Shown here one piece after another: positions 32,495-58,890 of a stretch of 64,000 nucleotides of DNA (position 1 is its first letter; each line of letters begins with the position of its first letter). Origin of the DNA: Planctomycetota bacterium (GTDB taxonomy: Bacteria > Planctomycetota > Phycisphaerae > Phycisphaerales > Phycisphaeraceae); the NCBI GenBank assembly GCA_016350165.1, contig CP066225.1, forward strand, positions 558,001 to 622,000, written 5' to 3'. The notes beneath the pieces are model-generated. The model was given only the letters and a program-made list of their open reading frames with translations, searched no databases and was not told the DNA's origin. Position numbers and translations under genes: made by a program.

Positions 32495-33295
32495 CTATTT
32501 CAAAACATTAATGCCGAAAGGGGCATAATAATCTTCGCCTTCAATTTGTATCTGCACATAAAGCCTCAAATAGCCGGCCTTTTCCGGTTGCAAATGAAAT
32601 GCGAGATTGGGTCCACCACGCTGCGACTTGCTGGTTGGTTCTTTACCTACAGGATGAGCATGGGCAATGGTATTGAAATCATCATAGAACCCGATCATGT
32701 GTGAATATGCACCCATCACAGGTTCGAGAGAATCAACAGGTTTGCCATCTTTCTTGACGACAATATCAATCATTGCATCATCGCCAACCTTCAATGGCTT
32801 ATCATCTTGAAGTGTAAATTCGTAGTCATTTACATTAGCTTTTTTATTTATGAAATAATCTATCTTGCCATTGCATGATTTATTGCTGTTTAGATTGACG
32901 GGTATAAAAATTTGTTTGCCGCCAACTGGAGTTACATCAATCCACATCTTGTACGCACAGTTTTCACTGGGGGTAAAATCGAATCGGTATTCACCTTCTG
33001 CAATCTGTGTAGGATGCACGTGGTGATAATCTTTGTAATTTGTATCCAGTATGACGACATGAATTGGTTGTGTATGGACAACTTCGAATGCACTAATATC
33101 TAAAGGCCACCCTTTTTCATCTTCCATACGAAAGATAATTTCATTTTCTACACCGGGTACCAGCTTCGTGTTAATCTCTGGCACATTAACATAAACGGCT
33201 TTGCCATCGATGCCGCCGTGCCCTTCATCTGCGTTTAATGTTGGTGCTAGAAAGAATAAAATTATGATGAAAGTGATTCGTGTTGTTTGCTTCAT
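32495..33295 (-). CDS. periplasmic two-domain metal-type protein (YtkA/FixH-like resemblance)
   Basis: A 266-aa exported protein with a signal peptide (residues 1-22, ending LAPTLNADE). There is a His-containing segment near the mature N-terminus (EGHGGIDGK). Two similar beta domains each carry a His cluster: HTQPIHVVILDTNYKDYHHVHPT and GAYSHMIGFYDDFNTIAHAHP. The pattern resembles YtkA/FixH-like and copper-associated periplasmic proteins, but I cannot confirm the family. Copper or another soft metal is a reasonable guess. No efflux pump lies nearby. Confidence 0.5.
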   Translation of the reverse strand: MKQTTRITFIIILFFLAPTLNADEGHGGIDGKAVYVNVPEINTKLVPGVENEIIFRMEDEKGWPLDISAFEVVHTQPIHVVILDTNYKDYHHVHPTQIAEGEYRFDFTPSENCAYKMWIDVTPVGGKQIFIPVNLNSNKSCNGKIDYFINKKANVNDYEFTLQDDKPLKVGDDAMIDIVVKKDGKPVDSLEPVMGAYSHMIGFYDDFNTIAHAHPVGKEPTSKSQRGGPNLAFHLQPEKAGYLRLYVQIQIEGEDYYAPFGINVLK

Positions 33296-33748
33296 GGGTT
33301 AATCATAGAACGAGTCCAACATGGCTAAACGTTATGTATACCCTATTTTTCTAGTGTTTTTGTTAAGTCAGCACTACTTAAGCAGCAAATACACATTAGT
33401 CGATCACACCAAACCATCTCAAAAGACAAACCCATCCTCTTAATTACTGCAATCTCGTTGTTACAGTCTTGCCCATTTTTACATTTTGAATGAAATCGGC
33501 TTGTATGCATTTTTTGGATCGCTAAACTGCGCCCTTGTGTTGGCTAATGTATGCCACACGAAAGATTCACGAGAGTATGCGTTACATCGCAAATCACTCA
33601 GCATCGACCCCCGCCCCACCCCGCTAACATTCGCAACTATGCGCTAGTTAGACAAACAACAGCATTAGCATAATTCAGCACCAATCGTTTGGTGCATGCT
33701 ATCCCTTTAACTTCGATAGCGATGACGATACTCACAAGGAGATAACGT
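33296..33748. other. gene-free stretch upstream of the LPMO gene
   Basis: No gene is supported. It contains a perfect 7-bp inverted repeat at 33678-33695 and a clear AAGGAG before the next gene. It likely carries the control region of the monooxygenase gene. Confidence 0.5.
33678..33695. promoter_or_regulatory. candidate operator palindrome upstream of the LPMO gene
   Basis: GCACCAA-TCGT-TTGGTGC is a perfect 7-bp inverted repeat, not followed by a T-run, 54 bp before the start codon. It could be a regulator site, but it could also be chance. Confidence 0.3.
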
Positions 33749-34480
33749 ATGAAGCTTTCACTCTATCTATCCGCTGCACTGGCAATGGTTATTACAACAA
33801 CCTCTGCATTTGGCCATGGTACTGTTACGTCACCTGCGTCACGTGTATGGCTTGTTCGTCAAAGCAATCCGGAGAACCCAAGCTTTGAACTTGCTCGAAA
33901 AGCAATTGAGATGGATGGTAAAAATGCTTACTACACGTGGAACCAAGTTTCACAAAACATTCCTCAAGCGGTACAGGCTGGCTTGCCAGAAGGCTTTGAT
34001 TACTCGCCATACGTACCAGATGGCCAGATCGCATCAGGCGGCAACAGCAGCTACTCAGGTTTGAATCAGGTCAGCGATCAATGGCAAACCACTGATGTAA
34101 CAGCAGGCGAATCACTAGCTATCGATTTCTATGCAACTGCACCGCATAATCCATCTGTTTTTGACGTCTGGATGACGACTGAAGATTGGGATCCAAACAC
34201 AGCTTTGAATTGGGATCAAATGGAGTTTCTCGAAAGAGCTGATGTGACACAGGAAGGTAATCACTATCTCTTCGACCTCGATATTCCAGAAGACCGATCA
34301 GGACACCATGTTCTTTGGATTGCATGGCAACGTAATGACCCTGTCGGCGAAGTATTCTTCTCAACTTCTGATTTGATGATTGCACCTTCTTCAAACGTAC
34401 CAGAACCAGCATCACTTGCGTTATTTGGTTTAGCTGGTGCACCATTATTGCTGAGACGTCGCCGTCAGCGCAGCAAATAA
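33749..34480 (+). CDS. AA10-type lytic polysaccharide monooxygenase with PEP-CTERM anchor
   Basis: A 243-aa exported copper enzyme that would oxidatively cut chitin or cellulose. The signal peptide (1-22) should be cut so that His23 becomes the N-terminus: SAFG followed by HGTVTSPASRVW, the hallmark of AA10 (HG...P.SR). His133 in YATAPHNP is the second brace His, and the later GEVFFSTSDLM supplies the axial aromatic. Residues about 217-243 are VPEPASLALFGLAGAPLLL plus RRRR, a PEP-CTERM sorting tail. Family and anchoring are motif-based; substrate is unknown. It has AAGGAG before the start and a terminator after it. Confidence 0.85.
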   Translation: MKLSLYLSAALAMVITTTSAFGHGTVTSPASRVWLVRQSNPENPSFELARKAIEMDGKNAYYTWNQVSQNIPQAVQAGLPEGFDYSPYVPDGQIASGGNSSYSGLNQVSDQWQTTDVTAGESLAIDFYATAPHNPSVFDVWMTTEDWDPNTALNWDQMEFLERADVTQEGNHYLFDLDIPEDRSGHHVLWIAWQRNDPVGEVFFSTSDLMIAPSSNVPEPASLALFGLAGAPLLLRRRRQRSK

Positions 34481-34510
34481 TCTAAACAGGTCATTTCTAA
34501 ACTCTCTTTA

Positions 34511-34537
34511 CAACCCGGTTTCTACCGGGTTGTTTTT
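34511..34537 (+). terminator. rho-independent terminator after the LPMO gene
   Basis: An 8-bp stem (CAACCCGG with CCGGGTTG, 6-nt loop) is followed by TTTTTT. Confidence 0.88.
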
Positions 34538-38346: not shown

Positions 38347-38613
38347 ATGATTGAAGGCCTTAAATTGAGCGTAGACGCTGCAAAGGTACTGGACTGCAAC
38401 AGCTTTCAAACAGAAGACGGCGAAGCGATGGCATACGTCAAGCTCGCATACTTCGGCGGCATTACAACGATTCTCGTTGATCCGATGACCGTTGAAAAAT
38501 TCATGCAACACAAGGACAAGATGGTCAAGGCAGAGGGTGCACTTTGGGTCGAACAAAAACCCAAGGGTGTGAAAGTTAAGTTCGACCTCGCAAACATCAC
38601 AGCAATCAAGTAA
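38347..38613 (+). CDS. probable phage ssDNA-binding protein (gpV-like)
   Basis: An 88-aa acidic-to-neutral beta-rich protein (LKLSVDAAKVLDC, AYVKLAYFGGITTILVD, GVKVKFDLANITAIK). Its length nearly equals M13 gpV (87 aa), and it lies directly before the replication initiator, as gpV-type genes often do. I see no sharp motif, so the call rests on size, composition and position. ATGGAGAAAAC lies just before the start. The first in-frame start of the next gene follows the stop at once. Confidence 0.6.
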   Translation: MIEGLKLSVDAAKVLDCNSFQTEDGEAMAYVKLAYFGGITTILVDPMTVEKFMQHKDKMVKAEGALWVEQKPKGVKVKFDLANITAIK

Positions 38614-38737
38614 TTGGGGCGGCGGCAAGCGATGAGCAGTGCAAACCTATTCGAACGTGTGGAGTGGAGAAGGACGCAGACGCTGGAGTCCGGAGCGAGC
38701 GATGCGCAGCGAGCGAGGGACGACAGCGGCTTCGCCG

Positions 38738-38761
38738 CCCCCCCTTTACTAATAGGGGGGG
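38738..38761. other. C7/G7 hairpin before the replication gene
   Basis: Seven C, ten other bases (TTTACTAATA), then seven G: a very stable hairpin 21 bp before the chosen Rep start. It may be a translational control element or part of a replication origin. The preceding 100 bp holds repeated GAGCGA words. Confidence 0.45.
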
Positions 38762-38781
38762 TAAATTCCCAGAGAGAGCAA

Positions 38782-39840
38782 ATGTCAACCGATGCTGATG
38801 GCTACGTTGGCATTCACTGGGTCCAAGGCACGATTCCACACGATCGAGAAAAGGAAGTACTGGAATACTTAAGCATGCTATTTGAGCGTAAGCCAATCAA
38901 GCATGATTACGGCCGCTTTCGATACAACATGTGTTATGAGTTTGAGCCGTTCGGTGTGTTTTTATATTGCGATGACACAAAAGAACGCAACAAACAAATT
39001 CACAACGGGCGAATCACACTCGTGCTTCCAGGCTCATGTCTCGATCAATTCACAGCTGATGGATTACACAAGCTATGCAAGGACTTGATTTTAAAATTCT
39101 GGTTTTTAGCGACACGAATCGACGTTTTCTGGGATGACTACCGACGCATCATCGAGCCTAATCAAGTCATAGACGATGCAGACAAAGGCAATATCAGCGG
39201 TTTCAGAAAATGGCAGGGATACGGGGAACGCAGTTTCAGAGATGGGGAGCTAGTAAGGCATGGGGATACCGCCTGTTTTGGCCGTCGAGGGAGCGATGGC
39301 AGTGGCAAGTATTTGCGTGTGTATGACAAATACCTTGAATCAGACGGAGAAATGGACTGCGTACACTGGGAGGTTGAGTTTAGCCAAGAGCGAGGGAAGA
39401 AGGTAATGCTCAATCTGGCAATGGCGGAGGATGTAGAAAGAATGTCGGGGATGATCGGGGCAGTGATTGGTGGCGTGGTTGATTTCGTAGATCGAGAAGC
39501 TAAACGACGAGAGAAAAACATTCCACGCCTTAACCAGCTTGAATGGTGGGCAAGAATTATAGACATTCTCGGCGTATGCAAATTACGCAACCCAACACCA
39601 GAAAAGAGCGTAGAAAAATCAGCCATATGGGTCGAGCGTTCAGTTTCAGTCACACTTGGGATGCTTCGATTAGCAGCCGGTGAACAGAAATTCTGGGAAT
39701 GGATCGAGAATGTCATTCAGGATGGGGAACAAAACATGAAATCAAGGCAGGAAGCGGTGCTTGAAGAATATTACAAGCAACATGGTGTTCCTGTAGACGC
39801 ATGCAGAGGCTCTAACAATGCATTAGAGATACCGTTTTAA
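38782..39840 (+). CDS. phage replication initiation protein (Rep_trans / gpII-like)
   Basis: A 352-aa protein starting near GYVGIHWVQGTIPHD. It contains the segment KYLRVYDKYLE followed by CVHWEVEFSQERGK, the LRVYDK...w.ElEf pattern of the Rep_trans family used by filamentous phages and rolling-circle plasmids. Such proteins nick the plus origin to start rolling-circle replication. The catalytic Tyr cannot be assigned by eye. An upstream TTG (38614) gives a 408-aa version, but the extension is Arg- and Ala-rich, overlaps the C7/G7 hairpin and is unlike a protein. AGAGAGAGC lies before the ATG at 38782. Confidence 0.78.
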   Translation: MSTDADGYVGIHWVQGTIPHDREKEVLEYLSMLFERKPIKHDYGRFRYNMCYEFEPFGVFLYCDDTKERNKQIHNGRITLVLPGSCLDQFTADGLHKLCKDLILKFWFLATRIDVFWDDYRRIIEPNQVIDDADKGNISGFRKWQGYGERSFRDGELVRHGDTACFGRRGSDGSGKYLRVYDKYLESDGEMDCVHWEVEFSQERGKKVMLNLAMAEDVERMSGMIGAVIGGVVDFVDREAKRREKNIPRLNQLEWWARIIDILGVCKLRNPTPEKSVEKSAIWVERSVSVTLGMLRLAAGEQKFWEWIENVIQDGEQNMKSRQEAVLEEYYKQHGVPVDACRGSNNALEIPF

Positions 39841-39850
39841 GGTGGACAAA

Positions 39851-39961
39851 ATGACTGAATTTGAAGTCTTTACATGGTTAGCGGGTGGTGGTGTGGTTGT
39901 GAGTATTGTTTTTTATTCGCTCGGATATGTTTCGGGCTGTTGGAAGTGGTACGTTCAGTAA
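39851..39961 (+). CDS. tiny membrane protein, possibly a pVII/pIX-type minor coat protein (36 aa)
   Basis: It starts MTEFEVFTWLAGGG, then has a hydrophobic helix (VVVSIVFYSLGYVSG) and ends WKWYVQ. M13's end-cap proteins pVII (33 aa) and pIX (32 aa) have the same size, helix and location just before the coat gene. It starts 10 bp after the rep stop with AGGTGGAC upstream. The match is by position and shape, not sequence. Confidence 0.6.
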   Translation: MTEFEVFTWLAGGGVVVSIVFYSLGYVSGCWKWYVQ

Positions 39962-40009
39962 TTCGGTGGCGTGCTTCAATATTTATATAACCGAATGGAG
40001 AAAAAAGAG

Positions 40010-40297
40010 ATGAAACAGGTATTTATCAATCTTGGTCGTAAGGCTACTTCTGAGGAAGTTTCAAAGGCAGCAAAGAAGGTCGCAGGCTTCGGCTTCACAG
40101 CTATGGCAGTATGCGGCGGTATCTTGTTGATTCAAACAGAATCACATGCAGCCCTGCCCGACCTTGGCGTTGACTTTGGCACTATGGTCAGTGACATGGC
40201 TACCGCGATGGGCGGTTACATCGGTACGGTGATTGGTCTTGCTGCTGCAGGTATCGCAGCGTTGATTGGCCTCAAGTGGCTCCGTCGTGCTGGCTAA
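40010..40297 (+). CDS. major coat protein of the filamentous phage (gpVIII-like)
   Basis: A 95-aa precursor. Residues 1-27 are a basic leader and residues 28-42 the hydrophobic core, with cleavage expected after Ala47 (ESHA, then ALPD). That leaves about 48 residues, close to the 50 of mature M13 coat. The mature part is acidic (LPDLGVDFGTMVSDM), then a Gly- and Ala-rich helix (VIGLAAAGIAALIGL), then the basic end KWLRRAG that binds DNA. The ATG at 40010 was chosen because GGAG lies 10 bases upstream; an ATG at 39995 and a GTG at 39971 are possible. This is the strongest single sign that the element is an inovirus. Confidence 0.88.
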   Translation: MKQVFINLGRKATSEEVSKAAKKVAGFGFTAMAVCGGILLIQTESHAALPDLGVDFGTMVSDMATAMGGYIGTVIGLAAAGIAALIGLKWLRRAG

Positions 40298-40315
40298 TAG
40301 CACTCGATCTAGGGT

Positions 40316-40347
40316 AGATACACATGGCTTAACGGCTGTGTGTATCT
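40316..40347 (+). terminator. hairpin after the coat gene (likely partial terminator)
   Basis: AGATACACA pairs perfectly with TGTGTATCT (14-nt loop), followed by TTA, and ends 2 bases before the next start codon. M13 has a central terminator after gene VIII that helps make the coat the most abundant protein. This hairpin is in the same place and could also mask the next ribosome-binding site. Confidence 0.55.
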
Positions 40348-40349
40348 TT

Positions 40350-41054
40350 ATGAAAAATGCTTCATATATAGCGTTTATATTCTGTTTTTTAATGTGTAGC
40401 CAAACATATGGCGCCGTAGATTTTCAATCTGATTTGTGGGTTTCGCGTGCCGAGTATGACGGCAATGTTTTGGCTGTTGGTACAAAAGTTAGGGGCGTTG
40501 GACCTGCTGAAAATCTATCAAGTACAGTTTTGTATTTATATTGTGGCCTCGTACCAGCGAACAGAGGCGTGGAAGTCGTTGAGCAAATTGCTAGCCGCTC
40601 AGTGAGTTGGTGTTATTTCGACATCACATACGATGACGTGCAAAATGTCATCGCGATTAATTACCACAACATGGCTGGCGATGATTTAGCGAGAGTGAAT
40701 ATTATTAAAAATGCTCTAGAAACTGAGCCATATATTGATGCGGATATAAAACGATTCTTAAAAATCTTCATCACCCAAGAAACGGATGAAGTAGGCCAAT
40801 ATGTAAAGCAAATTCATCTGGCTGATGCACAAGAGGAAGTTGATATACACGACATCGGCGATAGTTTACCGACCGACTATTCAAGTCCCGAAGACGTCAA
40901 CGAGCAACTAGCAAATCTAGTTGAGACGATCCAAGCCGCAACGGATGAAATACGTTTTTACATTGCTGTCACAGCTATAGCCACATCTTTTGTGGCTGGT
41001 TTATCACTCTTTCGGATTACGGTTTTAGGCAAGAATCAGAGGACGACATGGTAA
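40350..41054 (+). CDS. exported phage protein of unknown function (234 aa)
   Basis: A signal peptide (ASYIAFIFCFLMCSQTYGA) and a C-terminal membrane helix (YIAVTAIATSFVAGLSLF) with a basic tail bracket a domain that should face the periplasm. The ATG at 40350 was chosen because it begins the signal peptide; an upstream extension from 40266 would overlap the coat gene. No family is recognised. It lies between the coat gene and the adhesin gene. In other inoviruses this slot holds a minor coat or adhesin subunit. Its last codons overlap the next start (ATGGTAA). Confidence 0.7.
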   Translation: MKNASYIAFIFCFLMCSQTYGAVDFQSDLWVSRAEYDGNVLAVGTKVRGVGPAENLSSTVLYLYCGLVPANRGVEVVEQIASRSVSWCYFDITYDDVQNVIAINYHNMAGDDLARVNIIKNALETEPYIDADIKRFLKIFITQETDEVGQYVKQIHLADAQEEVDIHDIGDSLPTDYSSPEDVNEQLANLVETIQAATDEIRFYIAVTAIATSFVAGLSLFRITVLGKNQRTTW

Positions 41055-42181
41055 GAGCAAAAACGATTCTTAATTCAATTTTTGCATTAGTAACGATGGT
41101 AACTCTGACAACAGGTGCTAATGCGGCGGTTGTTGCTCAATGGGATTTTCAAACCGAGCACAACGGCGAAATAATCAATTGGGAAGCTGAAATTCAGGTC
41201 AATGGTGCAAAGCGTGTCGGTTGGTTTAGTACTGAATTTATACTTCACGGCAACGGTGCGGAGTACAGGTATTATCGCAAAGAAACAAAAGTTGTTAGTG
41301 GTCCAAATGCTGGAAGCGTATCAAATGTTTCATCAAAAGATATGAATACATGGGACAATCCAGAACAATCACTTTATGCATATTATCCTGAACTGTTTGA
41401 TCACTTCGTTGATGGCATGGACGATAGTTCATTGTCAGAAGTCACGCAAAATATGATCAACATTTCAGAAGATGACCCGACAACAGATGCGTTAGGTGAG
41501 TTCTTAGATACCTGTATCGAGAATGACGACATACCGGATGTTGATCTTGTAGATGATGGAGGCCAATGGCTTATAGGCAATGGTCCGTCAATGATCGAAG
41601 ACACTGACGGAGATGGATTGGTCGATGTGTACGATGATGACCTTGATGGTGATGGTGTTCTCAATACAGAGGACAACGACACCGATGGCGACGGCGTAAA
41701 CGATTCAGTAGAAAACGGCCAAGGCACAAACCCCTATAAACAAAGTGATTTTCTCGACGATGATGGTGATGGAAAATACGACTTTGGCGATGATGACGGG
41801 GATGGCGTGAGTAACTCGGCTGAGCATGCCGCGGGGACAGATCCGGACGATGCGAATGATTTCAACGACTTGCAGAATGATGGTATCGCTGATCCGAGTT
41901 TCGGGAGTGTCATATCAGAAGTTGAGGCGGCGGTCATGTCGCGTATCGGTTTAAGCCAATTGTTTGGTTACGGCGTGATTGATGACTATGAAAAATCATT
42001 TGATGCTGAAATTGCTTTGCCTGCAGGGCATTCGGTGAATGTTGCATTTTCAACAGGTGCAGGAAGTGGCCCATATGCTTCTCTAGTGCAAAGTGCGAGA
42101 GATGCAATACGTGGGATTCTTGTTGTTGGTGTTTATGTCATGTTTGCAGTTGGAATTCTAAAGGTACTTAGACAATGGTAA
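41048..42181 (+). CDS. pIII-like adsorption protein with Ca-binding repeats (377 aa)
   Basis: A signal peptide (1-27, ending NANAA-like at TGANAA) leads into a beta-rich domain (30-180). Residues 185-275 form a chain of thrombospondin type 3-like repeats (EDTDGDGLVDVYDDDLDGDG, DNDTDGDGVNDS, DDDGDGVSN). Then comes a C-terminal domain ending in one helix with a basic tail (GILVVGVYVMFAVGILKVLRQW), the anchor expected for the pIII class. M13 pIII has glycine-rich linkers here, not Ca sites. The place (before the pVI-like gene) and topology support a receptor-binding role. It overlaps both neighbours by 4-7 nt. Confidence 0.72.
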   Translation: MVRAKTILNSIFALVTMVTLTTGANAAVVAQWDFQTEHNGEIINWEAEIQVNGAKRVGWFSTEFILHGNGAEYRYYRKETKVVSGPNAGSVSNVSSKDMNTWDNPEQSLYAYYPELFDHFVDGMDDSSLSEVTQNMINISEDDPTTDALGEFLDTCIENDDIPDVDLVDDGGQWLIGNGPSMIEDTDGDGLVDVYDDDLDGDGVLNTEDNDTDGDGVNDSVENGQGTNPYKQSDFLDDDGDGKYDFGDDDGDGVSNSAEHAAGTDPDDANDFNDLQNDGIADPSFGSVISEVEAAVMSRIGLSQLFGYGVIDDYEKSFDAEIALPAGHSVNVAFSTGAGSGPYASLVQSARDAIRGILVVGVYVMFAVGILKVLRQW

Positions 42182-42483
42182 CGCTCTTACTCGAAGAAGA
42201 CCCAACTTGGGTGGGCGAAGTTATCCAGCACACTTTAAGTGTTTGGTATACGTGGCTAATTTCATTTGCGGACAGCATTGTTAAGCCGCTCATGATTGAT
42301 CTGATTGAGAAGATACCAATCATTCCGATCGTTCCTACCGGTATTGATGAAATGTTATCAATCGTCAATTACTGGCTTCCTGTCACTGAATTTGTTCATT
42401 GTTTTGAGCTATACATTACGTTCACAATCGCATTTATTGCTATCAAATATCCTATTAAATGGCTTTTGCCAGGACTCGGTTAA
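42175..42483 (+). CDS. pVI-like minor coat protein (102 aa)
   Basis: A short, very hydrophobic protein with two or three helices (VWYTWLISFADSIV, IPIIPIVPTGI, YITFTIAFIAIKYPI), located between the pIII-like gene and the Zot gene, as gene VI is in M13. It overlaps the previous gene (ATGGTAA) and its stop overlaps the next start (TAATG). No sequence match to a known family was seen; the role is inferred from order and shape. Confidence 0.68.
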   Translation: MVTLLLEEDPTWVGEVIQHTLSVWYTWLISFADSIVKPLMIDLIEKIPIIPIVPTGIDEMLSIVNYWLPVTEFVHCFELYITFTIAFIAIKYPIKWLLPGLG

Positions 42484-43103
42484 TGTTAACAGTTATTGAA
42501 TTAACAACAGGTGTTCCGGGTGCGGGCAAGTCTTATCGAAGATGTGCGCATTACCTCGTCAACGATTGGCTTAAAGATAAAGAAAACCGTATCCACTACA
42601 GCAATTTTCCTGTCGATATCGAAGCTATCGCGGAGTATACAAGTAGGCGTGATGTCGATGAGCATATCAAGGAAATACCGGAGGATGTGATTGAGACATG
42701 GCTGGAGGGTCGGTCGGGGCCGTGGGAATATTTTCAAGATACAGATTTAGCTTGTTGCCATATTGCACTTGATGAATTCGACCACTTTTGCAGTACAAAT
42801 CACAAGAAGGAAATCCGTACTCAGTGGGCTGCATGGCTTAAAGAGATTCGGCACCAAGGAGCAACGGTCGAGTTTATAACTCAGGATCATCAAGCCGTAG
42901 CAAAAGAGGTCGAGCGAAAAGTAGCGGTGCGAAGATCATTAACGGTTGGTGCTGATCGACGCGATCCATATTTTAAGATCAAGATGTACGACTGGTATCA
43001 GCTGCGAAGCAAGTTGATCAATCGGCAAGTACAGACGGTCATTGAAACTGAATACAGAAAACATGATGGACGGTGGAAGGCGGAAGATGCAAGCGGAGGA
43101 TGA
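42483..43103 (+). CDS. Zot/pI-like assembly ATPase (206 aa)
   Basis: The product that drives coat assembly and export through the envelope. Walker A is TGVPGAGKSY near residue 10 and Walker B is CCHIALDEFDHF near 90, followed by a WAAWLKEIRHQGATVEFITQ segment, as in Zot proteins. It ends after the ATPase domain with a short basic stretch (WKAEDASGG). The membrane helix and periplasmic domain of M13 pI (about 350 aa) are not present, which is unusual. The start overlaps the previous stop (TAATG), and the stop overlaps the secretin start (ATGA). Confidence 0.85.
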   Translation: MLTVIELTTGVPGAGKSYRRCAHYLVNDWLKDKENRIHYSNFPVDIEAIAEYTSRRDVDEHIKEIPEDVIETWLEGRSGPWEYFQDTDLACCHIALDEFDHFCSTNHKKEIRTQWAAWLKEIRHQGATVEFITQDHQAVAKEVERKVAVRRSLTVGADRRDPYFKIKMYDWYQLRSKLINRQVQTVIETEYRKHDGRWKAEDASGG

Positions 43104-44305
43104 AAGCGGTGAAGTATATACATTGTCTATTGATTAGTGCCCTGCTCTGTGGATGTGCGGCTCAACCAAAAGAAATAACGACGGTTAACCTTGATGAAAT
43201 TTACGAGGCAGTCGAAGAACTACGAAACCAAGCACAAGCAAGTGATGAGCATGAAGAGAAGATGATTTCATGCGTGGTTAACGACATGAAAGTAACCGCT
43301 TTGTGTAGATATTTAGCTTCTGAGTATGGCGTTTCGATTGTGACTCAAGAAGGCTTAGACGATCAGGTCGTCAATATCACGGTCGAGAATCAGCCGGTTG
43401 AAGATGTTGTTGCGGTGTTTGCTCGTCGTGTTGGTGCTCAATTAACCAGAGTCGGCGAGGTGTATTACATTGGAAATTTGCGGCCAGAGGATAAAGGCGT
43501 TTTAGTTGATCGCGTAACTAATCGAGATGTTGTAACGATTGAAAATGCTATTAAAACAGTGCTTTCCGAGTATGGGCGATGCACTGTGTTTCCGGATGGT
43601 ACAGTTGTTGTCGGCGATACGGTTGAAGTCATCAGACGAGTTAACGAGATCATCCGCACAATCAACAAGCAGCATATCGCAACGTGGTACGTTCAATTGA
43701 TTGTGATTACAAAGCAGATGAAAGATGAACGTGGCTATGGCATTTCAATCAATGACGAAATTAATTTAACGAAATTAATTGCTGATGCCGCATCAAGAAA
43801 CATTTCAGTTAGCCTTCTTGCTGAACGATATATCAATGCAGCTATAAAGATGTCTGCAAATTCCGAGTTTATTACGATCTCACAAACTCCAGCGGTGATT
43901 GTAAACGGGGCAACGGTCGCAAGGATCGAATGCAGTGATAATATTCCTGTCCCCAAAAAAGCAGTCAATAATGAAGGTGAGATCATCGCCACAACTGAAT
44001 ACCAAGATGTAAGCGCGGGTATGATCGCGGAGATCATGGTTTCATCAGTTGTAACCGGCGGGCATAGTTTGGATGTGATGATTGAGAGTTCAGATGTCAT
44101 CGGCATGAACGATGAAGCGCCTATCGTGCGTCGTCATAAACTCGACACCACAGCCAACATGGGGAATGAGCAGCTTTATCTGATTGGTGTGTACTACAAG
44201 AATCGAACAGAGAACGGTTTTACAGGTGGGTTCTCCAACTACACCAGCAAAACCAAGGAGGCTTTAGCTGTGGAGGTGTGGGCCAACGTACAGCAAATAC
44301 GTTGA
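43100..44305 (+). CDS. phage secretin (pIV-like outer-membrane channel)
   Basis: A 401-aa exported lipoprotein-like secretin. The signal ends at a lipobox-type Cys (SALLCGCAAQ). Residues about 55-135 form the N0/STN-type domain (VVNDMKVTALCRYLAS, NITVENQPVEDV). A N1-like segment follows (NAIKTVLSEYGRC... VIRRVNEIIRTINKQH), then the beta-barrel secretin domain. It would form the pore through which phage leave without killing the cell. The GGAGG before the ATG at 43100 sets the start. It overlaps the Zot stop by 4 nt. Confidence 0.82.
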   Translation: MKAVKYIHCLLISALLCGCAAQPKEITTVNLDEIYEAVEELRNQAQASDEHEEKMISCVVNDMKVTALCRYLASEYGVSIVTQEGLDDQVVNITVENQPVEDVVAVFARRVGAQLTRVGEVYYIGNLRPEDKGVLVDRVTNRDVVTIENAIKTVLSEYGRCTVFPDGTVVVGDTVEVIRRVNEIIRTINKQHIATWYVQLIVITKQMKDERGYGISINDEINLTKLIADAASRNISVSLLAERYINAAIKMSANSEFITISQTPAVIVNGATVARIECSDNIPVPKKAVNNEGEIIATTEYQDVSAGMIAEIMVSSVVTGGHSLDVMIESSDVIGMNDEAPIVRRHKLDTTANMGNEQLYLIGVYYKNRTENGFTGGFSNYTSKTKEALAVEVWANVQQIR

Positions 44306-44338
44306 TCATTTTCACAGCCGAATCACGGATGTGACACG

Positions 44339-45214
44339 ATGAAACTCGAACAACTAATCAAGCAATATGAAGATCACGCACGAGAATACTATCGCAAACC
44401 TAAATCAGGTAGGTTAACCTCCGAGGTAGCGAGCATAAAACAGGCAACCAGCCAACTGATAACCTTCTGTGGAAATATCCACATTGAAGAGCTTAGACCA
44501 TTGAAGCTTCGAGGCTTCATGGATTCATTGGTCAGGCGTGGGAATTCTAGAAAGACCATCAACGATAAGATTGACAGAATCCGCCGTATGTACCGCTGGG
44601 CAGCTTCCTATGAAATGATCCAACCAGAGCATGTCTACGCCCTCAAACAGGTTCCACGACTACAGAGGGGCCGTACAAGAGCCAAGGAAAACAGAACCAT
44701 TGAACCCGTACCGGCAAAAGACCTAATCAAATCAATGCTGCACATGGATAAAACAATGCGCAACATGGTTAGAGTCCATTATCTTACAGGTATGAGGCCC
44801 AGTGAACTACTCACAATGCGTTGGGAAAACATCACTTATGAAAATGGCATTCTGTTATATCGTCCCAACGAACACAAAACAGACTGGAGAGGTACGGAAA
44901 GAATTGTTCCGCTAGGTAGACGTGTTCAAAAACTGATTGGTTACGGCGATACAGGCTATGTTTTTACAAACATTAGAGGTCAGCAATATACAATTTGTGG
45001 CTATCGTTCCAACGTAAAAAACGCTTGTAATCGAGCTAAAATTACTATCTGGTCACCACTTCAACTTAGACATAATGCTGCTACTAGATTTGAAAATAAA
45101 CTAGGCACTAAAGAAGCTCAGATTTTGTTAGGTCACAGCAAGCCATCGACTACTGAAATATACATTTCAAGAAGTTTTCGAAAATCATTAAAAAATATCA
45201 CACAGTATTTATAG
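44339..45214 (+). CDS. tyrosine recombinase (phage integrase)
   Basis: A 291-aa enzyme of the phage integrase family. The N-terminal 100 residues form the core-binding SAM-like domain (QLITFCGNIHIEELRPL). The catalytic residues are Arg in TGMRPSELLTMRW (near 152), Lys in EHKT, the Arg-His pair in LQLRHNAATR (near 243), His in LGHSKPS (near 265) and Tyr in STTEIYI (near 273). It would recombine the tRNA-Ala attachment sites. It lies 33 bp after the secretin. Filamentous phages often use the host XerCD instead, so an own integrase is notable. Confidence 0.92.
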   Translation: MKLEQLIKQYEDHAREYYRKPKSGRLTSEVASIKQATSQLITFCGNIHIEELRPLKLRGFMDSLVRRGNSRKTINDKIDRIRRMYRWAASYEMIQPEHVYALKQVPRLQRGRTRAKENRTIEPVPAKDLIKSMLHMDKTMRNMVRVHYLTGMRPSELLTMRWENITYENGILLYRPNEHKTDWRGTERIVPLGRRVQKLIGYGDTGYVFTNIRGQQYTICGYRSNVKNACNRAKITIWSPLQLRHNAATRFENKLGTKEAQILLGHSKPSTTEIYISRSFRKSLKNITQYL

Positions 45215-45268: not shown

Positions 45269-48200
45269 ATGGCTAAATCAAAAAGTAAACACGCAAAATA
45301 CTATCCAATTGATCTTCATGTTCATAGCGTAGCATCTGTAGATTTTAAATATCAGGATGTGATTACATTGCCTGAAGAAATCGAATCATGTAAAGACAAT
45401 GTTGAACGTGAAAGAAAACTTATTGAAAATAAATTATATGAAGATTGGTACAAGATTCTTGTTGATAGAAAAAATAAGGTCTATGAATCATTAGAATCTG
45501 CACAGCCTCAACAGTGGGGTATTATTGGCATAACGGATCATAACTTATATCGATTTGCTACATACTTATCAAAATTTGCATGGGATAATAAAGATGAACA
45601 TAATTTAATAATTCTGCCTGGAATTGAATTAGAAGTTAGGTTCGACTTAAAAGGAAAAGAGTGCCGTGTACATATTTTATGTCTTTTCGAACCTGAAGCA
45701 GATGCTGAAAAAATCAGCAATATTATACGAACATCAACACCTGAAGGAATTCATTGGGAGTATGGCTCACCGATTCAATTAGATAGCTTTCATAAATTTA
45801 TACATAATCTAAGGAACAACAAAGCAGGATCTGTTATATGTGTGGCAGCTCATATTAGTTCTACAAAAGGATTATCGAACGAGACAAAAGAGGCCATCTT
45901 ATCTGATATTGATGCGCAAATTTCGAAAATCAACATGGAAATTGATTCAATAACAGCTAGTAATCTAAAAGAGGTAAAGAAAGAGAAAAAAATTTCCAAA
46001 CTAAATGATGAGATTGAGACATTAAACATACAAAGAAATAATGCCGATGCTATTTCATTAGAAGTTCTACGAGAAATAGGCAAATGCGGCTTTGATGCAT
46101 TGCAGGTAAGCCGCTTTCAGGACAGAAAGCATTATAGATTCTTACATCGTTTTAGAGAAAAGTATGGTCGTTCAATAACAATTCAATGTTCTGATGCACA
46201 CAAAGTGGATTTGATATTTTTATGCAATGAAAATATACCACATATAAAAATTCAAAATTTAAACACAACAACAAAATCTTCTGATTTTTTCAAAGATTTA
46301 ACAAATAAAGCATTACGTTACGGCGAAACAAGATATAGATACCAGAAGCCGGATCAAACCAGATACTGGATAGAATCAATTACAATTGATCATGATGATG
46401 CTGAAGGAATGAAATTCTGGCATACATCTGATTCAACATCAAATACCATATCTTTTTCCCAGAATTTAAATTGCATTATTGGGGGACGCGGTTCAGGTAA
46501 AAGTTCTTTAATAGAAGCATTAAGTTTTGCGTGCAACAACGATGATTACTTATCTACGATGAAGGATCGTGATTACTATCAACGCGCCACATATACTTTA
46601 TCTGGTAACAATGTAAATATAAACTGGAAGCTTTTTCGCCACCCAGAGCTAAAAGATATTACAAATGGGAAAATGGCTACGAAAAGATATTTTGATCCAA
46701 AGTTTAATCATGATTTCATAACCTGCTACGAAGATAAAAATAAGATCAATATTGAGAAATCACATCTTCCCAAAATTAGTGTCTATCGTTTAAATGAAAT
46801 TGAAAAACAATCTGAACCCCACAATTTACGTGAATTAATTGACAATGTTAAACCACAAACGATGCTAGAATTTTCACAAGAAGAAAATAGCTATAGAACT
46901 AAGCTAATAGAAAACAGGACTAAAATTGTAAATAAAGCAAAAGCAATCAATGACCTCACTTCAAACGATACACCTCTTTCAAACTACTGCATCAGAAAAA
47001 AAGCATTCAATCAAGTTAATACAGATGAGATGATTCAAACATATAAAAAGATAGATAAATTAACTTCAGCAAAAATTGCAACAAGTGATTTACTCACTTT
47101 TTTAAACCAACAGCTAAATGACTTCAAAATCAATTTTCAAAATGAATTTGATAAAACAAAAAAAGATATTATCGATCACTTAGCACGAGAAGATTCAGCT
47201 AATAATACTATATTCAAAGATATTCACGATTACGTTTATAGTAATGATAGTGAATTTCAAGAACTAAACTCGGTTTATCAAACTTTTATAAATGGATTAA
47301 ACTTAAATATTGAAAAGCTGAATGGCATCAATTCAACAATTGAAAAAAGTCTTGCTATTGAAAATAAAACATTAGAAGAGAATGGATTACCTAAAGGCAC
47401 ACTCAGTCGAAACAAAAAACGAGAAGCACTATTAACAGCGGAAAAACAATTAAGAGAATATTTTGATTTAGTAGATGATTATGACAACCTATTAGAGGAA
47501 AGAAAATCACTATACAAACAATACAAAGACGCTTTTGAATCAAAAAGAATAGCCAGAAATGAAATAATAAGTAATTTAAATACAACATTATCAGAAAGTA
47601 TCAATACAGATATGTTTGATATCTCAATTCATCTAGATGAAAATTTCGAAGCAGAGAATCATGTTGAAAATCTACAACAAATAATAATGCTTTCGGGCAA
47701 AAAATATACATTGAACCGTGCTCGTAACATATTCAAAATTAATGCTAACAGGAATATTGAAGAAATTGTTGAGATGTTTTTACATGGCAACATGGATATG
47801 AGAAACATAATTATTGACACCCGCTATGCCGCAGTAACTGGTGGAATTGACGAGAAATCAGCAATCGAAATAATACAAAGCGCTGCTTGCTATGAACGTA
47901 TCGACATGCCAGCAATTGAACATATCGTTGATGATACTGAAAATTATGATAAATTAAAAAATGGTTTACTAGTATTTACAAATACCAAACCAAGCAAGCT
48001 AACAATCGACACTGTCCTTAAACTTCATGAATCTAGATTTCATGATATGCCAAGTGTCACATTAAAAGATATGTCTAACGGTAACTCTGTAATTTCAAGT
48101 ACATTGACAAATATGTCACCAGGTCAAAAATGCAGTGCAATGCTTCCAATTATTATTATGCTCAGTAATTCTCCATTAATTCTAGATCAACCTGAAGACA

Positions 48201-48502
48201 ACTTAGATAATAGACTGCTACGCCAGATTATTGTAAACACCCTTAGCGCTATAAAACTAAAAAGACAAATAATTATCGCAACACATAATCCGAATATTCC
48301 GGTATTAGGTGATTCTGAACAAATTCATATTTTACGTAGCACGAACAACAAAAGCACCACAATAGATACTTCGGGTGATTTGGATTCTCGCAATGTCATT
48401 AAGCACATAACTGATTTAATGGAAGGTGGACGAGAAGCATTTCAATTCAGACAAACCATATACCAGTCACATTGGAATGATGATTTTGTTTTTGAGGATT
48501 AA
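45269..48502 (+). CDS. PHP-domain SMC-like ATPase (TrlF-like), probable defence cargo
   Basis: A 1077-aa protein. Residues 10-350 form a PHP phosphoesterase-like domain: YYPIDLHVHSVASVDF near the start, GIITDHN-type motif (IGITDHNLYRF) near 87, then a long helical insert. An SMC/ABC-type ATPase follows: Walker A IIGGRGSGKSSLIEAL near 406, a coiled-coil middle at about 440-900, the signature MSPGQKCSAM near 948, and Walker B PLILDQPEDNLDNRLL near 967. Such fusions are known as TrlF-family proteins and resemble anti-phage systems. The gene is clearly A+T-rich compared with its neighbours, so it likely arrived separately. A promoter of its own is not seen. Confidence 0.78.
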   Translation: MAKSKSKHAKYYPIDLHVHSVASVDFKYQDVITLPEEIESCKDNVERERKLIENKLYEDWYKILVDRKNKVYESLESAQPQQWGIIGITDHNLYRFATYLSKFAWDNKDEHNLIILPGIELEVRFDLKGKECRVHILCLFEPEADAEKISNIIRTSTPEGIHWEYGSPIQLDSFHKFIHNLRNNKAGSVICVAAHISSTKGLSNETKEAILSDIDAQISKINMEIDSITASNLKEVKKEKKISKLNDEIETLNIQRNNADAISLEVLREIGKCGFDALQVSRFQDRKHYRFLHRFREKYGRSITIQCSDAHKVDLIFLCNENIPHIKIQNLNTTTKSSDFFKDLTNKALRYGETRYRYQKPDQTRYWIESITIDHDDAEGMKFWHTSDSTSNTISFSQNLNCIIGGRGSGKSSLIEALSFACNNDDYLSTMKDRDYYQRATYTLSGNNVNINWKLFRHPELKDITNGKMATKRYFDPKFNHDFITCYEDKNKINIEKSHLPKISVYRLNEIEKQSEPHNLRELIDNVKPQTMLEFSQEENSYRTKLIENRTKIVNKAKAINDLTSNDTPLSNYCIRKKAFNQVNTDEMIQTYKKIDKLTSAKIATSDLLTFLNQQLNDFKINFQNEFDKTKKDIIDHLAREDSANNTIFKDIHDYVYSNDSEFQELNSVYQTFINGLNLNIEKLNGINSTIEKSLAIENKTLEENGLPKGTLSRNKKREALLTAEKQLREYFDLVDDYDNLLEERKSLYKQYKDAFESKRIARNEIISNLNTTLSESINTDMFDISIHLDENFEAENHVENLQQIIMLSGKKYTLNRARNIFKINANRNIEEIVEMFLHGNMDMRNIIIDTRYAAVTGGIDEKSAIEIIQSAACYERIDMPAIEHIVDDTENYDKLKNGLLVFTNTKPSKLTIDTVLKLHESRFHDMPSVTLKDMSNGNSVISSTLTNMSPGQKCSAMLPIIIMLSNSPLILDQPEDNLDNRLLRQIIVNTLSAIKLKRQIIIATHNPNIPVLGDSEQIHILRSTNNKSTTIDTSGDLDSRNVIKHITDLMEGGREAFQFRQTIYQSHWNDDFVFED

Positions 48503-48681: not shown

Positions 48682-51600
48682 TTAAAAACTAATTCTAACA
48701 CCTGCATAGATATTGTTGACAATAAAATCTTCCGGAATAAATTCAACGTTGTATTGTACAGTAAAACTAATCGGAGCTTCATGACTGATACCGATGAGAT
48801 TGACCCCGATAAGGCCAGAGTCACGGCCGGGGCCGATGCCACTGTATGCAAATGATTCGTCGCCAGCTGGTACACCTACATTTACCGTAGCAATCGGATC
48901 AAGGTATTCGTGCTCCCAAAAGCCTACTAATTCCGGCACAAGCAGCATCGCTGACGTGTCGTATTCATAAGTCGCGCGGAAGCCAAGGCGCGTCACAAAT
49001 GAATTGCCGTTGAATGCGCCAACATCAAGATTCAAACTGTCAGCACCGGTTTCATTGTGCGAACCAATCTGAAGATTGACCCACTGTAATGCAAGCTGTG
49101 GACCAAAGCCCCAATTGCCAGATTTAAACTCATAACCACCTGTTGCCAGTGCCTGCAGGTAGAAGCCGGTCGGATCACTTTCAGCTACACGGTCAATACC
49201 GGGTGAAATAATGCGGCGATTGTTTTCATAAAAGTTTACACCGCCGCCAAATAGTCCTGATGCATAGAATCCGTCTTCGTTGAACCATGTCATGTACATG
49301 CCGGTATTGATGCTGTTGAATGAACTGGTTCCTTGGCCGCTATCGACGGTGATGCCTGTGTTTGAATAACCAACGAACGCACCAGCCGCGAGCATATCGA
49401 GAATGCGATAGTCAAAACCAAGTGTCACACCACCCGTATTGAATTCGTAGCCTGCTTGGCTTGAGGTTGAATCAAAATCGCCAAACGTACCGAATCCATT
49501 GACCCATGCACCCCAGATGTCTTTGCCAGCACCTGAGAAGCGGTTGGTTTCCTGTTGCTGCTCAAGTGTTTGTTGCGTCTGCATTGCAAGCATCATCGCG
49601 AATTCTGGGTCAGCGGATTCGCTTGCATTGGTATTTTCTGGTGTGTTCACATTAAGGTTGTTCGACCAAAGCTTTGGCAAGCCATTACGCAATTCATTGA
49701 GTCGACCATTAAAGTTATTGTTCTGTACGTCAATCCCTTTAAAGGTTGCTTCGGCTTGCGACACTAGATAGTTTGGCACGATCTGCTCAAAGGCAACGAC
49801 CAGTTCCGTGTCAGTGAGATTTTGAAGTTGCGTAATCACAGTTGCCATGTCACCAGTGGGGCTACTATCTGCTATTCGCGCAAATGCTTCTGCTGCTGAA
49901 AAAAGGTTACGTTGTGTCACAACATCTGTAAACGGAACTCCAATCAATTCAATGATGATATCATTTGCATTGTAAGTTGCTTCGATATTGAATGAGCCGA
50001 AGTTGTCGGTGATTGAACTGAAGGTGCCACTAACCCCATCGTCTGCAGTAAGGATGGTAAATGTATCACCATTTGTTGGGCTATAACCAGCCAGTCTAAG
50101 TACGTTCAGCGTACCGTCTATTGCAGCAGCGCCGGTCACATCGATAAAGTCGTTGCCGGTACCGGGACCCGCTGTGGAAGCGATCTCCATGTCATAAATA
50201 CTTGTACTGGTCAGTGTAAGGCTGCCGCCAACGGTCATGGTTCCCGGGCTAGTTCCGGGTGCCATCGTGCCTGAGTTGGTGTAGTTGCCTGCAAAGTTCA
50301 TAACGCCGCCTAGCGTCGCGCCACTAGCCACGTTGATATTTGAACTGGCGAGGCTTCCGTTTATGATTAACGTACCCGCATTGACGGTGGTATCACCAGT
50401 GTATGTATTTGAATCATTGCTGAGTGTGACAGTACTTGAACCTGTTTTTGTTAAAGCGCCATCGCCACTAATGACACCTGAAAGCTCAAAATCACTACTA
50501 CCACCTGTGGTGAGAGTGTCGCCGAGTGTAACCTCAATATTATTGCTAACCGCGCGTGCATCATCGTCAGACTCTATTGTTGAGTTGCTGGTGACAAGCA
50601 TATCGCTTGTGCCTAGTGCATTGTTATGACCGAGAATCAACGAACCACCTGTAAGCGAGGTACCTCCAGTGTAGGTATTGTTACCACTGAGTGTTAAGGT
50701 ACCTAGATGTGCTTTTCTCAGTCCACCATCGCCTGAGATCACCCCGTTGAGTTGTAAATCTGAAGTGCCAGAAACGTAAAGTGTGTGTGTATCTGCTATA
50801 GATATCGTGTTGTCAACTGAACGGACATCGTCATCAGACTGGATTGTTGCAGTTGAAGCAATTGTTAGGTTACCTATACCAATCGCATTATTATGGCCAA
50901 GTACAAGCGTACCAGTTGACAGCGTTGTTCCTCCTGAATAGGTACTATCGCCACTAAGCGTGACAGTAGAGCCATCTAGATCCATGAAAATTGCTAAAGC
51001 ACCATCGCCCACAATTCTGTCTGTCATCTCAAGATCATTTGCACCATCAACCGTTAATGTAGCCCCTGAACCGATTGTAACGCTGTTCGCTATCGAACGC
51101 GCATCATCAGTCGATTGTATATTCGCATCGCCATCTACTGCAAGCAAAGCCGTTCCCAACGCATTATCATGACCGAGTATGATCGTACCATTCGATAGTT
51201 GGGTACCACCTTCATAGGTATTGTTTCCTGTAAGCGTTAGCGTTCCGGTACTGGCATGTCCAAGTCCACCACTACCTAAGATGAGGCCTGTGAGTGCAAG
51301 GTCATTACTGCCACTAACCGTCAGTATATTACCGACGCCAATATCGATCGTATTTCCGATCGTGCGTGCATCATCATTCGATTGAATCGCACTTTCGCCA
51401 ATCACCGCCATAGCACCAGTACCCAATGCACTATCGTTACCCAGTACAATCGTGCCGTTAGAAAGTGTTGTGCCACCAGTGTATGTATTGCTACCCGTAA
51501 GTGTGAGTAGGCTGTCTCCATTATTACTTAATGCACCATCACCGAAAATCGTACCTGTTATCGTTAGATCGTTAATACCCCTCCGAGTGAGTGTCGCGCC

Positions 51601-57725: not shown

Positions 57726-58772
57726 TTAAACTCTACGCCGTCTTGTTAACATGCCGCCCAACATAAACAGCATCGATCCCAACGCACTAGGTGTTGGCAC
57801 AGCAACCGGGTTGCCTACCCCCTGCCCTAACAGACTTGGATCAACCTGCCAGCCAATATCTGCAAATACAGCATAATCCAGCGCCGTTAGCAGATTTCGC
57901 TCACCAACACTAATCAAAGGATCTAATGCCAGTTCATTTTCATGCAAACCTTCTTCAAAGTGACCACCACCATCTTCCGTCGACAACGGCACCAAGCTCT
58001 CACCAAACAACTCTGCTGTTGTTTCACCTGTGAAAAACAGTTCGCCATTAATCTCGGTCACCAGATTATCAAACGAATCCGCAAGACCAAAACCAAAAAC
58101 ATGCCCTAATTCATGAACTGCCACCGATAGAAAATCGACATGCGAATTTGTTAAACCATCTGTACCTTCTGAATCCCAATACCAGTCCAGATCAAACCCA
58201 CTTGCAGTAATACTGGAATCAAAAGTAATCTGTCCACCCCACAATGAAAAATCATTTGCTTCCGCACCTAACGTTGTTCCTTGTCCACGACTAAGAACAT
58301 TGTTACCAAACTCTGTATTTGGAAATACCTGATAACCACCAGGCCCCGCAAACGCGGCAGCATCCACATCCTGCGCCCCGACATAAATCAATACTTCATT
58401 TTGGTCTAATTGCAAGTTAGATACAGTTTGCGTACCACCATTTGTCGGATCAGTTAAAACTGCATTCCACGAATTAATACCGCCCGTTGGATTGATTGCA
58501 TTAAGATTATCTGAAAACGCACTTTCATAATACGAAGCCGCCGTTTCCAACGCATTACGTCTCTGCTCACCTGTCGAGCCATCCTCATACGTCACACCTT
58601 CTGTAAAGAAACCTGTGACCGTATTACCATCCGATGTTTGATAGTTGCCTGTATCAAAGCTGTAATCAAAACTGACATTGATCGCGTCCGCCTTCGTAAC
58701 CAAAGCCAAAGGCAAACCAACTCCAAGCGCAACAATAGCGCCCTGCTTAGTAATGATCGCAGCTATAGCCAT
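57726..58772 (-). CDS. PEP-CTERM-like zinc metalloprotease domain protein (348 aa)
   Basis: A signal peptide (1-30, ending LVTKADA) is followed by a soluble domain with a zinc motif SVAVHELGHVFGFG near residue 219-229 (HExxH). The third ligand usual for matrixin-like HExxHxxGxxH is not seen: residue 11 is Leu, not His or Asp. The end has VAVPTPSALGSMLFMLGG then TRRRRV, a PEP-CTERM-like tail with VPTPSA in place of VPEPxx. The ATG at 58772 was chosen for the AGAGG upstream. Activity is therefore uncertain. Confidence 0.75.
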   Translation of the reverse strand: MAIAAIITKQGAIVALGVGLPLALVTKADAINVSFDYSFDTGNYQTSDGNTVTGFFTEGVTYEDGSTGEQRRNALETAASYYESAFSDNLNAINPTGGINSWNAVLTDPTNGGTQTVSNLQLDQNEVLIYVGAQDVDAAAFAGPGGYQVFPNTEFGNNVLSRGQGTTLGAEANDFSLWGGQITFDSSITASGFDLDWYWDSEGTDGLTNSHVDFLSVAVHELGHVFGFGLADSFDNLVTEINGELFFTGETTAELFGESLVPLSTEDGGGHFEEGLHENELALDPLISVGERNLLTALDYAVFADIGWQVDPSLLGQGVGNPVAVPTPSALGSMLFMLGGMLTRRRRV

Positions 58773-58890
58773 ATCATTCCTCTTCTCTATCAATTCAATC
58801 TATATCTTTGATTATTTTTACCGATGCATGTATCCCGAGAGATAAGCCAAGAACTTTAGTGATCAGTCAGTCGAAAAGCAAAGAACATAC

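Follow-up and report, generated by a model that had tools for sequence, protein, structure and literature searches.

A gene at 33749-34480 in the window (the whole 64,000-nucleotide stretch analysed here, from the genome of a marine planctomycete, probably Poriferisphaera strain ZRK32) appears to join a lytic polysaccharide monooxygenase (LPMO) to a PEP-CTERM tail, which raises the question of whether the product is an enzyme with an intact copper site and, if so, whether its tail holds it at the cell or only helps it out. The initial annotation had proposed an LPMO tethered to the cell, and on re-reading its coordinates, strand and residues (HGTVTSPASR, His133 and the VPEP tail) all proved exact. 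Our preferred reading, to which we give a probability of roughly 0.7, is that the gene encodes a secreted copper-dependent AA10 LPMO, most likely directed at chitin, that uses the exosortase/PEP-CTERM route of its host. The features on which this reading draws are collected in Table 1.

Table 1. Features of the LPMO gene, its divergent neighbour and the nearby prophage, in window coordinates
Feature	Position	Strand	Basis
Secreted His-rich protein with weak YtkA-like match, divergent neighbour of the LPMO	32495-33295	-	Profile match, P. corsica comparison
Shine-Dalgarno AAGGAG, ATG 7 bases on	33736-33741	+	Sequence reading
AA10 LPMO gene with PEP-CTERM tail, 243 aa	33749-34480	+	ORF reading, Pfam, NCBIfam
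Sec signal peptide, residues 1-22	33749-33814	+	By eye; cleavage before His23 placed by AA10 homology
AA10 catalytic domain, residues 23-211, cysteine-free	33815-34381	+	Pfam, alignment, structure model
His23 (mature His1), predicted copper His brace; invariant in 48-sequence alignment	33815-33817	+	
His133 (mature His111), predicted second His-brace ligand; invariant in 48-sequence alignment	34145-34147	+	
Phe203 (mature Phe181), AA10 axial-position Phe within GEVFFSTSD; invariant in 48-sequence alignment	34355-34357	+	
PEP-CTERM sorting signal, residues 217-240: VPEP, hydrophobic stretch, RRRR	34397-34468	+	Pfam, NCBIfam, comparison with the genome's tails
Terminator-like hairpin, 10 bp stem and T run, 30 bases past stop	34510-34533	+	
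Prophage, small coat-like protein	39971-40297		
Prophage, Zot-type ATPase	42459-43103		
Prophage, secretin-like protein	43073-44305		
Prophage, tyrosine integrase	44339-45214		

The catalytic domain is an AA10 LPMO with an intact His brace

In the translated reading frame a signal peptide ending in TTTSAFG precedes a mature protein that would start with HGTVTSPASR; by eye the peptide shows a lysine, a hydrophobic stretch and AFG directly ahead of His23, and the domain match begins at residue 23. The second histidine lies in the context FYATAPHNPSVFDVW and the protein ends in VPEPASLALFGLAGAPLLLRRRRQRSK. The complementary frame on the reverse strand is broken by many stops, and terminator-like hairpins occur at chance level (1 found, 1.0 expected in shuffles).

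The AA10 profile search that the initial annotation had proposed gave a full-length match to Pfam LPMO_10 (PF03067), with an E-value of 1.1e-37 and 130.9 bits over a cut-off of 23, spanning residues 23-209 and profile positions 1-183 of 183. A structure model of the catalytic domain built from a 48-sequence alignment reached a pLDDT of 96.9 and was used in place of one from 13 close relatives, which was poor (pLDDT 53) and was discarded. Over the whole domain the model superimposes on the solved AA10 proteins Tma12 (Z 27.7, as for 6if7 over 179 aligned residues), AsLPMO10B (Z 26.8), CbpD (Z 26.6) and ScLPMO10D (Z 26.4). AA10 structures in general score between 17 and 28, whereas AA9 and AA11 enzymes score only about 9-10; the much greater nearness to AA10 structures, with their immunoglobulin-like beta-sandwich, places the protein in this family.

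The 48-sequence alignment shows no variation at mature His1, His111, Glu179, Phe181 and Asp186, and the His brace and axial Phe (H1, H111, F181) line up with those of solved AA10s. A brace that failed to align with AA10 structure had been named in the initial annotation as grounds for abandoning the LPMO assignment; it does align, and profile, structure model and conservation agree on that assignment. A defunct brace is ruled out by the invariance of its residues. Judged by profile and model, the product is an AA10 LPMO with a predicted intact His brace. Tma12, CbpD, ScLPMO10D and AsLPMO10B, which are chitin-binding or chitin-active, are also its closest solved relatives by sequence and share its fold (Z 26-28), brace and axial Phe at about 30% identity; to our knowledge none of the four bears a PEP-CTERM tail.

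The C-terminus is a genuine PEP-CTERM signal in a host with exosortases

The PEP-CTERM tail proposed initially is borne out by profile matches over cut-off, Pfam PEP-CTERM (PF07589) covering residues 217-238 with 23.4 bits (cut-off 20.7) and NCBIfam PEP_CTERM TIGR02595 giving 24.8 bits (cut-off 16), and by its conservation in relatives; the same two lines rule out a chance PEP motif. The host genome holds 99 PEP-CTERM matches with the usual form VPEPASLALLGLGGLALLRRRK, which the LPMO tail, VPEPASLALFGLAGAPLLLRRRR, fits. No LPXTG motif occurs in the 243-aa protein. Elsewhere in the window a Matrixin-like secreted protein (57729-58793, minus strand) ends in VPTPSALGSMLFMLGGMLTRRRRV, a VPTP variant of the tail.

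Three exosortase homologues (PF09721 loci) are present in the genome, two of which, read by eye, have the EAC.G.RM motif and, in the expected regions, the downstream Arg and His. The third (L090:2094-2996, minus strand) is by eye without the catalytic Cys, SETGRIMG replacing EAC.G.RM, and lies near an ORF resembling a WecG/TagA-like glycosyltransferase.

The tailed architecture is conserved within one AA10 branch

The LPMO is the only AA10 of its host. The AA10 of P. corsica, whose published description lists exactly one auxiliary-activity CAZyme (PMC7783415) in agreement with the single AA10 match in that genome, keeps the tail at the same place. In a scan of genome contigs 10 of 13 related loci, mostly from Mariniblastus and other Pirellulaceae, carried the tail, one of them with a dockerin-like stretch (by eye) ahead of the PEP motif. 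Every tailed AA10 falls within one 12-member branch of the tree (support 100/96). As far as these sequences go, the tail is no accident, being common to P. corsica and ten planctomycete loci of the same AA10 branch. The initial annotation had called the design uncommon, which may hold for LPMOs overall, our survey for PEP-CTERM AA10s having covered Planctomycetota plus one sequence-based scan of genome contigs; within its own branch, however, the tail is the rule.

The sole untailed member of this branch is a Saprospiraceae-binned sequence (L054:441-1754) with a CBM4/9-type module instead of PEP-CTERM and no exosortase detected in its genome, so that either its tail was exchanged or the sequence was binned wrongly. 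Exosortase accompanies the tailed AA10 in 9 of 10 genomes, versus 1 of 3 genomes with untailed relatives, a correlation over few, related and mostly incomplete genomes; the one MAG with a tailed AA10 in which no exosortase was found may itself be incomplete.

A second property of this lineage is its scarcity of cysteine. The catalytic domain of the ZRK32 enzyme has none, and of the 20 members of the planctomycete branch in the alignment 19 are likewise cysteine-free, the Saprospiraceae-binned member alone having a single one; many relatives from the window's order have several. Both the lack of cysteine and the long branch that sets it off in the tree separate the planctomycete branch from the Tma12-type AA10s.

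Of the genomes sampled, 12 of 392 from the phylum, 63 of 400 from the window's order (nearly all in one family) and 7 of 396 from the order to which a Mariniblastus genome belongs had AA10 genes. Within the family of the window AA10 was confined to the two Poriferisphaera genomes, and all 20 other family genomes listed lacked it. AA10 LPMOs of Planctomycetota have been described before, mainly from the SM1A02 group (PMC11131199), in a paper whose main text says nothing of PEP-CTERM or exosortase. These belong to the same phylum and enzyme family, but the 28 AA10s of the window's order whose tails were read are only about 33-44% identical to the ZRK32 protein and have dockerin-like, CBM2-like or other ends, with no PEP-CTERM seen. 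The ZRK32 protein is 60-66% identical to proteins of Pirellulales, another class, and thus horizontal transfer of the gene between planctomycete classes is likely.

The LPMO gene lies in a conserved neighbourhood outside any chitinase cluster

The immediate neighbours of the LPMO are metH, bacA/uppP, a YtkA-like gene, an alcohol-dehydrogenase-like gene and an NAD-kinase-like gene, and the order metH-bacA-YtkA-like-LPMO-ADH-NAD kinase is common to the host and P. corsica. Given this shared neighbourhood, the gene probably predates the split between the two Poriferisphaera species. A CAZyme or chitinase gene cluster is ruled out, as the immediate neighbours include no chitinase or cellulase. The YtkA-like protein has HHVHP and HAHP/HTHP motifs and stands beside the LPMO in P. 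corsica too (50% identity); next to the LPMOs of Pirellulales, where the loci are short, no such gene was found. A role for it as a metal-handling or copper-chaperone partner of the LPMO is speculative.

Chitin is the more likely substrate

From fold and sequence relatives chitin would be the more likely substrate and cellulose a possible one. With identity to the nearest solved enzymes at only about 30%, this assignment is a guess, and the model matches the cellulose enzyme ScLPMO10C (Z 26.0) almost as well as the chitin-type AA10s. Each Poriferisphaera genome has three GH18 genes, one encoding a protein with a CBM2, and there is also a GH5-type match in the genome; none of the three GH18 frames carries a PEP-CTERM tail. 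In a relative from the order (L082:1354-3570, minus strand) an AA10 and a GH18-like region, TIASAGGVDKLENYELAELAQTLDWVNVMAYDF, appear by eye to form one protein; such a fusion would speak for chitin as what that branch attacks.

Either O2 or H2O2 is required for LPMO activity. Isolation and culture of strain ZRK32 were anaerobic (PMC10945688), while P. corsica is aerobic (PMC7783415). The host genome encodes three haem-copper oxidase genes (subunits), and these genes together with the aerobic relative make use of O2 or H2O2 by the host, when oxygen is present, plausible; they likewise weaken the objection that LPMOs are of no use to an anaerobe.

The tail may attach the enzyme outside the cell or only carry it there

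A PEP-CTERM tail is an exosortase signal and is thought to be cut off. Reasoning from homology for every step, we propose that the protein would be exported by Sec and that removal of the signal peptide would expose His1, which together with His111 is predicted, from the invariant residues and the fold, to bind copper. The tail would keep the enzyme in the inner membrane until one of the two plausible exosortases cuts at the PEP motif, and the processed LPMO might then be passed on to the outer surface or the exopolysaccharide, as opposed to being released. There it could oxidise crystalline chitin, possibly cellulose, for the GH18 enzymes of the genome.

Whether the tail ends in attachment is the step on which the literature divides. 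The founding model of the PEP-CTERM system draws on the sortase analogy and lets the protein be handed over to some unknown carrier (PMC1569441), and a study in Nostoc argues for attachment of PEP-CTERM proteins to the outer membrane and exopolysaccharide (PMC12188702). We put attachment of the LPMO outside the cell at about even odds. The same Nostoc study, however, found 12 of 35 PEP-CTERM proteins in the exoproteome, several of them reduced in an exosortase mutant (PMC12188702), and the PEP-CTERM exoprotein ZepA apparently has both its N- and its C-terminal signal removed (PMC10957091). The tail may therefore be a transit device only, exosortase cutting it and the LPMO being released untethered as a diffusible enzyme into the medium or matrix, a reading also favoured by the dockerin-like or CBM-like tails of related planctomycete AA10s without PEP-CTERM. 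The case for attachment just given stands against release, which we regard as a serious candidate of somewhat less than even probability.

A second alternative, that the LPMO attacks the cell's own exopolysaccharide or biofilm matrix and not external chitin or cellulose, finds some support in the company that PEP-CTERM systems keep with exopolysaccharide genes (PMC1569441) and in the location of one exosortase, which by eye adjoins an ORF similar to polysaccharide export proteins. Fold and residues nevertheless fit chitin and cellulose AA10s, and the gene lies outside any exopolysaccharide locus, which makes this alternative very unlikely. We also know of no AA10 that acts on self-made exopolysaccharide. 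Least probable of all is a non-catalytic chitin-binding adhesin on an LPMO fold, displayed by its PEP-CTERM tail. The first AA10 proteins did enter the literature as chitin-binding proteins, and GbpA acts as a colonisation factor, but here every His-brace and axial position is intact and invariant.

Our preferred reading of a secreted, exosortase-routed LPMO can be extended, tentatively and with somewhat less than even confidence, to a cysteine-poor planctomycete AA10 lineage in which the Poriferisphaera/Pirellulales branch displays its LPMO on the outer surface or exopolysaccharide via exosortase, oxidises chitin in a cell-bound ('selfish') manner and has had its tailed enzyme moved between classes by gene transfer. 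If true, exosortase would do here, in a cell with an outer membrane, what LPXTG and GPI anchoring do for other LPMOs. A 1839-aa autotransporter with 11 PATR repeats and an autotransporter beta-domain (48682-54201, minus strand) is evidence for an outer membrane able to display large passengers.

Enzyme and tail are each known, and their pairing appears to be new

Fungi have GPI-anchored LPMOs. Together with LPXTG-tailed AA10 LPMOs, which have been mentioned (PMC8615602), they are a precedent for an LPMO with a C-terminal surface-sorting signal, but the sorting enzymes and envelopes are different and the tails are not homologous. With the exosortase-sorted proteins described to date (PMC1569441; ZepA, PMC10957091; Nostoc CrtB, PMC12188702) the LPMO shares the tripartite tail, the exosortases and the many similar tails in the genome. 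Most known PEP-CTERM cargo has little homology to known proteins (PMC1569441), whereas the cargo here is a defined redox enzyme. A search of open-access papers, which excluded subscription journals and database entries, found none that brings PEP-CTERM and LPMO together. Enzyme and tail being each well known, the pairing is a conserved architectural variant that is apparently undescribed, and the finding as a whole is a real, modest departure from a known enzyme, set in an AA10 lineage of planctomycetes that nearly lacks cysteine.

Its value lies in the assayable nature of the cargo: because most PEP-CTERM proteins are without known activity, the oxidised products and the location of this LPMO would directly test anchoring versus release by exosortase. 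The LPMO also brings exosortase sorting into the range of LPMO architectures, and the nearly cysteine-free AA10 branch is of possible practical use.

Prophage and cargo elsewhere in the window

A filamentous-phage-like prophage occupies 38347-45214 and includes a replication initiation factor (Rep_trans, E 5.6e-22) in addition to the parts in Table 1. The paper on strain ZRK32 describes a chronic phage, said there to be hexagonal and extrachromosomal (PMC10945688), from which this chromosomal inovirus-like element looks to be different; the element would be expected to be chronic itself. Immediately past its integrase, 45269-48502 encodes a 1077-aa protein with an SMC/AAA-type ATPase (AAA_21) and, by eye, a PHP-like N-terminus, which looks like a defence-type cargo gene; the window between 46 and 48 kb is low in GC (31%).
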